Source: Methanospirillum hungatei (GTDB lineage Archaea; Halobacteriota; Methanomicrobia; Methanomicrobiales; Methanospirillaceae). Taken from it: a stretch of DNA of 64,000 nucleotides. The notes beneath the pieces are model-generated. The model was given only the letters and a program-made list of their open reading frames with translations. It was not told where the DNA came from and made no database searches. The position numbers and the translations under genes were made by a program. The stretch spans positions 372,001 to 436,000 of the forward strand of contig NZ_CP077107.1 of the NCBI RefSeq assembly GCF_019263745.1, given 5' to 3'. Shown here piece after piece: positions 25,264-53,609 of this stretch (positions are counted from its first letter, which is position 1; every line of letters starts with the position of its first letter).

Positions 25264-26454
25264 TTATGAACGGGCTGTTTCACCATGTTGTGAGATATCA
25301 AGTCCTACATACTCTTCTTCTTCTTTTACCCGGAGTCCCATAATTCTATCAATAGCCAATGCAAGAATCCAGGTCCCGATGAATGAATAAGCCAGGATAA
25401 TAAAAGCTCCACCTGCCTGAGTTATCACTTGTTGAGGATTTCCCGCAATTAAACCATTGACTCCACCAATAGTTGCCGTAGCGAAAATTCCTGCTGCAAT
25501 TGTCCCCCATAATCCTCCGGACCCATGTATTGCCCAAGCATCAAGACTTTCATCCCATTGTCTAGCAAGTCTGAATACTAAGGCGTAATAACAGATGATA
25601 CCTGATATTGTACCTATGATAAATGCTTCCAGAGGACCGACAAATCCTGCAGCTGGTGTAATAGCACCAAGTCCTGCAATTGTCCCGGAAATCATGGAGA
25701 GTGAACTGGGTTTTCCATAATACCAGGAAGTAAGCATGTATGAAAACGTTCCGGCAGCGGCAGAAATATTGGTTACAACAAATGCATTGATTGCAACAGC
25801 ATTTACTGATAGAGCAGAGCCTGCATTAAAACCAAACCATCCAAACCATAACATAGCTCCTCCCAGTAAGGTTATTGGGATATTATACGGAGAGAGAGAA
25901 TATTCTCCAAATCCTCTTCTTTTTCCTATAACAAATGCAAGAGCCAATGCAGAAAAACCTGCGCAGATGTGAACTACAATGCCACCTGCAAAATCCAGGA
26001 CTCCTAATTGCTGTGCCCATCCACCGCCCCAAACCCAATGAGCGACCGGATCATAAATAAAAGTGGACCAAGCTAATCCAAAGATAAGGAATGATGATAA
26101 CTTGATTCGTTCAGCAACGGCTGATGTTACAATGGCAAGAGTAATCGCGGCAAATGCCATCTGAAATACCATAAAAACCATTTCGGGAAGTTTCTCACCA
26201 TCAGTTGCAACATTCATCAGGGCAAGTTTATCTGGAGATCCAATAATGCCCATGATATCCGGACCAAAAGAGAGCGAATACCCAAAAAACATCCATTGTA
26301 GTGAAATCAGAGCAAAGGATATGAAAGATAGGGTAATCATCGAAATAATATTTTTCCGATGAACCAGTCCAGCATAAAAAAAACCCACCCCGAAGGTCAT
26401 TAAAATGACAAGAGTTGTACAAATCAGAACAAATGCAGTATCAACGGCTTGCAT
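25264..26454 (-). CDS. amt: Ammonium transporter Amt
   Basis: This 396-aa, 11-helix Amt/Mep/Rh channel begins in helix 1 with VGFFYAGLVHRKN. The two pore histidines are seen in GIVVHICAGFSAL (helix 5) and WAIHGSGGLWGT (helix 10). It imports ammonium (conducted as NH3 after deprotonation) when it is scarce. No glnK PII gene is adjacent; the only PII genes in the window are nifI1 and nifI2. The promoter carries a nGAA-N6-TTCn element like that of the nif operon (see 26513-26538). The C-terminal tail is short and acidic. Confidence 0.95.
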   Translation of the reverse strand: MQAVDTAFVLICTTLVILMTFGVGFFYAGLVHRKNIISMITLSFISFALISLQWMFFGYSLSFGPDIMGIIGSPDKLALMNVATDGEKLPEMVFMVFQMAFAAITLAIVTSAVAERIKLSSFLIFGLAWSTFIYDPVAHWVWGGGWAQQLGVLDFAGGIVVHICAGFSALALAFVIGKRRGFGEYSLSPYNIPITLLGGAMLWFGWFGFNAGSALSVNAVAINAFVVTNISAAAGTFSYMLTSWYYGKPSSLSMISGTIAGLGAITPAAGFVGPLEAFIIGTISGIICYYALVFRLARQWDESLDAWAIHGSGGLWGTIAAGIFATATIGGVNGLIAGNPQQVITQAGGAFIILAYSFIGTWILALAIDRIMGLRVKEEEEYVGLDISQHGETARS

Positions 26455-49966: not shown

Positions 49967-49993
49967 TTTATATAGTAATTGAAAGTAATTTCC
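49967..49993 (+). promoter_or_regulatory. Distal nif promoter with NrpR-like operator
   Basis: TATA box TTTATATAG at 49967-49975 is followed by TGAA-N6-TTCC (49980-49993), matching seven of eight positions of GGAA-N6-TTCC, the NrpR operator of Methanococcus. With a start about 25 bp after the TATA box, transcription would begin near 49996, so the operator would block polymerase. The adjoining bases (TTCCAT) also resemble the amt site. Confidence 0.6.
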
Positions 49994-50052
49994 TTCCATA
50001 ATTATTATATATTATTAATATGAATAGAATAGTATACAAGAGGAGGAGGAGG

Positions 50053-50094
50053 ATGGGCAACAGAGTTGCAGTTCATATATCTTTTATCGTCTAA
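50053..50094 (+). CDS. Leader mini-ORF of the nif transcript
   Basis: ATG 50053 follows GAGGAGGAGGAGG, the strongest ribosome site in the window. It opens a 13-codon frame MGNRVAVHISFIV ending at TAA 50092-50094. It lies about 60 nt after the predicted distal transcript start and 270 nt before nifH. It could be a leader peptide or a ribosome-loading site controlling downstream expression. There is no homology evidence. Confidence 0.4.
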   Translation: MGNRVAVHISFIV

Positions 50095-51189
<1,095 letters not shown>

Positions 51190-51553: not shown

Positions 51554-51973
51554 ATGAAGGAAATAATGGCAGTCATCCGGATGAATAAGACTAATGTAAC
51601 AAAGAAGGCACTCGTTGATGCAGGAGTTGCTGGATTTACTGCCGTAAAGGTTATGGGCAGAGGAAAGCGGGTGGAAGACAGCAGTATCATCCAGGGAAGA
51701 AAGGAAGAACTGCTGGCACTTGCAGCAGATGACATCCTGGACCGGGAAGAGACTGAAAAACAGGTAACAAGTTTCCTGGACGGATCACGGCTCTTCCCAC
51801 GCCGGCTCTTTACCATCCTCGCCCATGATGAAGATGTCCCCCGGATCGTTGAAGCAATAATCAAAGCAAATAAAACTGAAAACCAGGTCGGAGACGGCAC
51901 CATATTCGTAATGCCAATCGGAGATGCAGTCCGTGTCCGGACAGCAGAGACCGGGGAAGCCGCAATCTGGTAA
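51554..51973 (+). CDS. nifI2: PII-type regulator NifI2
   Basis: This 139-aa longer PII paralogue has the same opening (MAVIRMNKTNVTKKALVDAG) and an extended T-loop insert containing DSSIIQGRKEELLALAADDI and a charged helix. The C-terminal GDGTIFVMPIGDAVRVRT is the nucleotide-binding end. It forms the hetero-oligomer with NifI1 for ammonia switch-off. The start has GGAGG, and nifD begins 10 bp after its stop. Confidence 0.95.
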   Translation: MKEIMAVIRMNKTNVTKKALVDAGVAGFTAVKVMGRGKRVEDSSIIQGRKEELLALAADDILDREETEKQVTSFLDGSRLFPRRLFTILAHDEDVPRIVEAIIKANKTENQVGDGTIFVMPIGDAVRVRTAETGEAAIW

Positions 51974-51983
51974 GGAGGAATAC

Positions 51984-53609
51984 ATGGCGATAAATCAGGA
52001 AGTACTGGATGAGATGCTTCTCCCGTACCCCGATAAAGTACAAAAGAATCGTACAAAACATATCGTCCGGAAAAATCCGGAAGAAGGGTGTCAGCAGATA
52101 GAGGCAAATACCAGAACTGTTCCGGGAATAATCTCCCAGAGAGGATGCTGTTATGCCGGATGTAAGGGTGTTGTTGTCGGTCCGATTAAGGATATGATAA
52201 CCATCACCCACGGTCCGGTAGGGTGTGCATACTACAGCTGGGGAACCAGGCGGAATAAGGCACGGGCCGATGATATTACTCCTCCTGAACAGATTTACGG
52301 GGCGATGTGTTTTGTCACCGACATGCAGGAACCGGATATTGTCTTTGGTGGAGAGAAAAAACTCGCCAAGATGATCGATGAAGTTGTCGAAATGTTCCAT
52401 CCCCGGGCAGTTAACGTCTGTGCAACCTGTCCGATTGGTCTTATCGGCGATGATCTGGGTGCGGTGACAAAAAAAGCAACTGAAAAGCATGGAATTCCCG
52501 TGCTGGCTTACAACTGTGAAGGATACAAGGGTGTCAGCCAGTCTGCAGGCCACCATATTGCAAATAACATCCTTATGGAGAATGTTATCGGTTCAGGGGA
52601 TGCAGAGAAGAACCCCTCCGAATTCGTGGTGAATCTCTTAGGAGAATACAATATCGGTGGAGATTCTTGGGAGATTGAAAGAATTCTCCATGATATCGGA
52701 TATCGTGTTCAGGGAGTCATTACCGGCGATTCAAGCGTGGAAGAGATGAAGAACATGCATATAGCCAACCTGAACCTGGTTATGTGTCATCGATCCATCA
52801 ACTACATCGCTGAGATGATGGAGGAAAAATACGGTATTCCATGGCTGAAGATCAATTTCATCGGTGTCGAGGCAATAAAGAAGTCTCTTCGTGACATTGC
52901 ACAGGTTACCGGCGATGAGACTTTCATCAGAAAGACTGAGGAAGTCATCGCAAGGGAAGAAGCACGGGTATTGCCGGTTATAGAACATTACCGGAAGATC
53001 TGCACAGGTAAGACAGCATTTGCCTTTGTCGGAGGTTCCCGGAGCCATCACTACCAGTACCTGCTCAAAGACCTTGGAATGGAGGTTGTTGTTGCCGGGT
53101 ACGAATTTGCCCACCGTGACGATTACGAAGGAAGATCGGTCATTCCGACGATAAAAACCGATGCGGATTCAAAGAATATTCCTGAACTTGATATCAAACC
53201 AGACCCTGAACTCTACAAAGAGGCTCATGAACATCTGAATCTCACAAAAGAGAAATTTGACGAGATATGTAGCAGGGTACCCCTTGGTAATTATGAAGGA
53301 ATGTATCCGGACATGAACGGAGGAACACTCATGATAGACGATTGTAACCACTACGAAGCCGAGCAACTGGTGAAGGAGTTAAAACCCGACCTGTTCTTTG
53401 CCGGGGTTCGTGACAAATACATCGCCCAGAAGATGGGAGTTCCGGCAAAACAACTGCACTCATATGACTACAGCGGCCCATACGCAGGATTTAACGGTGC
53501 AATGAATTTTGCCCGTGATGTGGCAAATGCCATGACAACTCCTGCATGGAAGTTTATAATCCCGCCATGGGAGAAAGAATCAGAAAATAAGGGTGATATC
53601 AATGCTTGA
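51984..53609 (+). CDS. nifD: Nitrogenase MoFe protein alpha chain NifD
   Basis: This 541-aa protein starts at ATG 51984 after AAGGAGG. P-cluster ligands are Cys55 (SQRGCCYAGCKG), Cys81 (HGPVGCAYYSW) and the Cys of CPIGLIGDD. FeMo-cofactor ligands are the Cys in VMCHRSINYI and the His in QLHSYDYSGPYAG. GVSQSAGHHIAN carries the catalytic Gln and His. Relative to Azotobacter it has an extra segment of about 50 residues around 390-440 (LYKEAHEHLNLTKEKFDEIC), the insertion known in Clostridium pasteurianum-type enzymes. It reads as a molybdenum enzyme. The end overlaps nifK. Confidence 0.97.
   Translation: MAINQEVLDEMLLPYPDKVQKNRTKHIVRKNPEEGCQQIEANTRTVPGIISQRGCCYAGCKGVVVGPIKDMITITHGPVGCAYYSWGTRRNKARADDITPPEQIYGAMCFVTDMQEPDIVFGGEKKLAKMIDEVVEMFHPRAVNVCATCPIGLIGDDLGAVTKKATEKHGIPVLAYNCEGYKGVSQSAGHHIANNILMENVIGSGDAEKNPSEFVVNLLGEYNIGGDSWEIERILHDIGYRVQGVITGDSSVEEMKNMHIANLNLVMCHRSINYIAEMMEEKYGIPWLKINFIGVEAIKKSLRDIAQVTGDETFIRKTEEVIAREEARVLPVIEHYRKICTGKTAFAFVGGSRSHHYQYLLKDLGMEVVVAGYEFAHRDDYEGRSVIPTIKTDADSKNIPELDIKPDPELYKEAHEHLNLTKEKFDEICSRVPLGNYEGMYPDMNGGTLMIDDCNHYEAEQLVKELKPDLFFAGVRDKYIAQKMGVPAKQLHSYDYSGPYAGFNGAMNFARDVANAMTTPAWKFIIPPWEKESENKGDINA

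Follow-up and report, generated by a model that had tools for sequence, protein, structure and literature searches.

A candidate NrpR operator shared by nif, amt and glnA promoters in a Methanospirillum-like genome

Two promoters in the 64-kb stretch of Methanospirillum hungatei DNA analysed here (the window), one ahead of the nif genes and one ahead of an ammonium transporter gene (amt), carry similar palindromic elements close to a TATA box, raising the question of whether NrpR, the nitrogen repressor of Euryarchaeota, acts through both. In Methanococcus maripaludis NrpR binds GGAA-N6-TTCC ahead of nif, glnK-amtB, glnA and molybdate transporter genes (PMC2723118), and for Methanosarcina mazei, with NrpRI and NrpRII, the operator GGTA-N6-TACC has been proposed (PMC3177094). 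A sequence-only reading of the window had interpreted the two elements as a local nitrogen regulon with a degenerate NrpR operator; we examined this interpretation in the window, in the complete genome and in related genomes.

The elements at nif and amt

At nif, on the plus strand, a TATA-like box (TTTATATA, 49967-49974, an 8/8 match to TTTAWATA; TTTATATAG, 49967-49975, as read directly) starts 13 nt before the predicted NrpR site TGAA-AGTAAT-TTCC (49980-49993, with TGAA at 49980-49983 and TTCC at 49990-49993). Direct reading places an extra right half-site TTC immediately after this site (49994-49996, giving TTCC-TTC), and a second TATA-like box, ATTATATA, follows at +24 (50004-50011). The first gene downstream, nifH (50365-51189, plus strand), heads the series nifH-I1-I2-D-K-E-N, in which nifK, nifE and nifN were identified from position and length. 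On the minus strand, the TATA box of amt, read directly as TTTATAT (26538-26532), precedes the predicted NrpR site AGAA-GTTATT-TTCT (26526-26513, with AGAA at 26526-26523 and TTCT at 26516-26513), which has GGT before it and, again by direct reading, an extra right half-site TTC after it (26512-26510, giving TTCT-TTC); the gene itself (25264-26454, minus strand) encodes an ammonium transporter (TIGR00836, 444 bits).

The 19-mers GAAAGTAATTTCCTTCCAT (nif) and GAAGTTATTTTCTTTCTAT (amt) are identical at 14 of 19 positions, and the gap that separates GAA from TTTATAT measures 7 nt at nif, as against 6 nt at amt. Motifs, coordinates and identity were thus as the sequence-only reading had given them. 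Its additional claim, that the two elements have equivalent positions between TATA box and start, is uncertain for nif, whose operator has TATA-like boxes on both sides (49967-49974 and 50004-50011). Within the window the pattern TTTATAT-N3..16-GAA-N6-TTC occurs exactly twice, at nif and amt, where 0.16 matches are expected, and two or more were obtained in 0 of 100 shuffles; the core GAA-N6-TTC taken without the TATA box shows no enrichment there (23 vs 34 expected).

Two further observations concern the nif genes themselves. NifD (51924-53609) comprises 561 aa against a family profile of 466 positions, and therefore contains an insertion or has a start that was called too early. At the end of this Mo-type cluster, 58092-58724 matches AnfO, an accessory protein of Fe-only nitrogenase, below the curated cut-off.

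Recurrence across the genome and its relatives

Judged by NifI1, the genome has its closest named relatives in Methanospirillum. Pattern searches of the complete genome (3.39 Mb, single contig) returned 24 sites for TTTAWAT-N3..14-GAA-N6-TTC, compared with 11 when the half-sites were swapped and 3 when the pattern was run backwards. The 24 include sites at nifH, amt1, amt2-glnK (G000:C1:2053842) and glnA (G000:C1:295896), each correctly oriented ahead of its gene, and operator-like sites at nif, glnA and glnK-amt are accordingly found together within one genome. Since glnA lies some 100 kb and amt2-glnK some 1.65 Mb from the sites in the window, the regulon is not local, as it had been taken to be. 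The suggestion that a genome scan should find the motif at nitrogen genes held for nif, glnA and amt2-glnK and failed at the nrpR genes, no operator motif being present at either the NrpRI or the NrpRII gene of this genome. In the complete genomes of two congeners (G002 and G007) the same pattern matches amt and glnA, and in G007 also nif; the nifH search in G002 gave only distant paralogues. Comparison of flanking sequence with one or both congeners left as common sites only those at glnA, amt1, amt2 and nif and one beside uvrA.

Once the TATA context is dropped, GGTRGAA-N6-TTC has 13 matches and GAA-N6-TTC-Y-TWC has 67 matches in the genome, and control counts are similar, so that sequence by itself does not define the regulon. 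Three sites at other genes were considered individually. The first (G000:C1:16782-16797, L262; TTTTATAATAATT-GGTAGAA-TGCTTT-TTCC) stands 48 nt ahead of a predicted 340-aa protein that is not supported as a nitrogen gene product; as a side observation, this site is a possible further regulon member. That beside uvrA (G000:C1:3389069-3389093, L144, also L321; TGAA-TGAATA-TTCC-TTAC) lies 16 nt ahead of the gene for a small membrane protein adjoining uvrA and is kept in two species; it too is not supported as belonging to a nitrogen gene. At G000:C1:937022 a further site scored highly but was excluded as likely to be coding, a judgement made from sequence context only.

A TATA-linked GAA-N6-TTC is present in 45 of 70 regions upstream of nifH, amt and glnA, taken from relatives and from the genome itself; the sequences compared are related, so that such counts do not represent independent events. 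The spacer is strict, lengths of 3, 4, 5, 7, 8 or 9 giving only 0-3 matches, and the motif is found in none of 46 control promoters (those of nrpR and of nifH-like, cfbC-type genes). Under the strict rule it is absent from about one third of the relatives' amt and nearly half of their glnA upstream regions. Examples, in oriented upstream regions, are TTTATATATGGT-GGAA-GATAAC-TTCT at amt2 and TTTAAAT...AGGT-AGAA-GTATGT-TTCA-ATG at glnA, and the nif element recurs in named Methanospirillum, Methanoregula, Methanoculleus, Methanofollis and Methanocalculus. Matrices trained on one gene recognise the others to differing degrees: with a matrix from the nif sites of other genomes, the score of the window's amt site is reached about twice per genome by chance, and with one from amt sites that of the window's nif site is reached about 18 times. 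The glnA form is more distant in sequence than the nif and amt forms; a glnA-trained matrix misses the genome's own nif site, and the genome's own glnA site has some 500-700 chance matches with nif or amt matrices. The outermost base is variable throughout Methanomicrobiales (A, G or T before GAA; C, T or A after TTC), the window's nif and amt sites having T..C and A..T, respectively. Because of this variability the operator may be called degenerate with respect to the Methanococcus consensus, but not within its own order.

The resemblance between nif and amt extends beyond the palindrome, as both carry an additional half-site that is lacking at glnA: TTC or TAC occurs one base past the right arm in 22/30 nif and 21/23 amt sites, compared with 0/13 glnA sites. 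A second GAA is located inside the left arm in 18/30 nif sites (e.g. GGAAGGAAGTTTCCTTCC in Methanoculleus). The relation to the TATA box differs between promoters. In nearly all amt promoters the box starts 12 nt ahead of the element, and at both amt and glnA the operator is downstream of the box, between it and the expected start. The nif promoters of Methanospirillum have TATA-like boxes on both sides of the operator; in those of Methanoregula type the upstream box is weak or absent and the downstream box, ATATAAATA at +24, is nearly constant, placing the operator upstream of the only clear TATA box (e.g. L037, L179, L185 and L226, with ATATAAATATTTG at +24). As only this downstream box is clear in Methanoregula-type promoters, the nif operator may be located upstream of the TATA box that is actually used.

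Probable identity of the regulator

NrpR domains were detected in 39 of the 41 genomes searched. NrpRI of M. mazei comprises a winged helix and an NRD, and its NrpRII an NRD only; our genome likewise encodes an NrpRI-type protein of 315 aa (HTH_12 and NRD1_2) and an NrpRII-type protein of 248 aa (NRD1_2 only), so that the absence of nrpR, which would have counted against the NrpR interpretation, does not arise. NrpRI matches the M. jannaschii NrpR domain structure 3NEK (E 7e-16), and the part containing its winged helix hardly varies within the order.

Compared with characterised systems, the element shares with that of M. maripaludis the GAA-N6-TTC core, the 6-bp spacer and the targets nif, glnK-amtB and glnA (PMC2723118), and differs from it in the relaxed outer bases, in the extra TTC or TAC at nif and amt and in the division of NrpR into two one-domain proteins; the general pattern searches brought up no site at molybdate transporter genes. 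With M. mazei the genome has the NrpRI/NrpRII pair in common; unlike the operator proposed there, the sites have GAA-N6-TTC and do not conform to GGTA-N6-TACC, although in amt and glnA sites GAA frequently has GGT before it. The comparison suggests that a Methanosarcina-type protein pair is here joined with a Methanococcus-type half-site, GAA.

Three alternatives to operators of NrpR were weighed. GAA...TTC is common near the TATA boxes of A+T-rich promoters, and were its occurrence a matter of chance two matches per window would be meaningless, as might be argued from the lack of enrichment of the core alone in window or genome; nevertheless, the dependence of the recurrence on a 6-nt spacer, its absence from every control promoter, the excess over expectation in the window and its near restriction to orthologous nitrogen genes render coincidence highly improbable. 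The similarity might instead reflect an initiator or BRE context common to strong promoters, hence a core-promoter element and no regulator site, which could account for the fixed 12-nt distance from the TATA box at amt. Such an element would not be expected to be missing from control promoters, to recur across the genome almost only at nitrogen genes and not at many unrelated strong promoters, or to keep its sequence where, as in Methanoregula-type nif promoters, it lies on the opposite side of the TATA box; to this explanation we attach very little weight.

It is also conceivable that the element is a genuine conserved nitrogen operator read by another protein, such as an activator resembling NrpA or some other winged-helix regulator. 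In Methanoregula-type nif promoters the site precedes the sole clear TATA box, a position where activators can sit; this would accord with such a protein, as would the different operator proposed for NrpRI of M. mazei. However, the core is that of the characterised M. maripaludis NrpR operator and serves the same gene set, the amt and glnA sites lie where a bound protein would block transcription, and NrpRI is kept across the order together with its winged helix; we consider another protein unlikely.

We conclude that both elements are very probably operators of NrpR, and place the probability at roughly 0.87: the occurrence of a common element at nif, both amt genes and glnA makes use by NrpR very probable. 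The motif with its conservation, strict spacer and target genes, and the occurrence of the two NrpR proteins, are computed results, from which we infer NrpR as the binder, repression and control by 2-oxoglutarate. Points that weigh against NrpR are the lack of genome-wide enrichment without the TATA box, the weak scores of the genome's own nif and glnA sites in some tests between genes, the differing operator proposed for M. mazei, the most thoroughly studied relative with such a protein pair, the nrpR genes without the motif and the amt and glnA upstream regions of relatives that lack it under the strict rule. By analogy with characterised NrpR systems, under nitrogen sufficiency, when 2-oxoglutarate is low, an NrpRI dimer would bind GAA-N6-TTC beside the TATA box and, with NrpRII, would block general transcription factors or RNA polymerase; a shortage of ammonium would raise 2-oxoglutarate and release NrpR, permitting joint transcription of nif, glnA and the two amt genes, one of which is coupled with glnK. 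The extra half-site of the nif and amt operators (TTC to TTC, 4 bp), together with the inner GAA that many nif promoters have in the left arm, would constitute a nested site that could accommodate a second dimer or increase affinity. A regulon of four operons (nif, amt, amt2-glnK and glnA) with a relaxed consensus and extra half-sites is thus a well-supported prediction.

A candidate leader RNA at nif

The distance from promoter to nifH is about 350 nt, and the 5' leader contains a conserved, predicted structured RNA element (50093-50243, plus strand), preceded by a predicted short upstream ORF of 13 aa (MGNRVAVHISFIV, 50053-50094, plus strand) behind a strong GGAGG ribosome-binding site. Most related leaders likewise have a short ORF ahead of the element and behind a GGAGG; variable in length and sequence, it lies some 70-75 nt past the operator start. 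An alignment of 17 leaders yielded one consistent helix set, with invariant blocks GGCGGA-N2-GA and TCC-Y-GAACC-R-G on either side of a variable arm; the element is also present at L035, L037, L167, L179, L185, L226 and L242-L260. A covariance model found one copy per genome, with strong scores in 24 of 232 genomes of the class, all within the same family, and the element was absent from the nif promoters searched outside this family. Of 19 copies examined, 18 (all those with a locatable nifH) are 210-317 nt ahead of nifH, with an operator-like site further upstream. Changes affecting both members of a pair were counted in 23 cells (24 distinct rows); shuffles gave 9.3 and sliding no more than 11. 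The alignment was, however, fitted to the structure, and the majority of core pairs do not vary; folded as a single sequence, the window copy shows no unusual stability (z -0.8). The element has no match in Rfam, and the main text of a paper on 104 candidate structured RNAs makes no mention of nif or of these genera.

Cis-control of the nif mRNA is the likely role of this element. More tentatively, and at slightly short of even odds, the nif operon of this family may be controlled at two levels: by an NrpR operator of nested half-sites, on a genus-dependent side of the TATA box, and by an undescribed, nifH-only leader RNA (with the short ORF before it) acting as cis-regulator.

Diverse NrpR homologues are reportedly the subject of Lie et al. 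2007. Our literature search, with many subscription papers outside its coverage, found no paper on a Methanospirillum NrpR regulon. The type of operator is already known, and the pattern described here is a solid prediction for a group in which it had not been worked out: for Methanomicrobiales it supplies an operator consensus and a core nitrogen regulon of four operons, of which no description was found in the literature searched. Members of this order are hydrogenotrophic methanogens and are common in wetlands and digesters. In some genera the nif operator is predicted to precede the sole clear TATA box, which has a bearing on the mode of repression by NrpR, and the leader RNA, if functional, would add a second, post-transcriptional layer to the control of nif.
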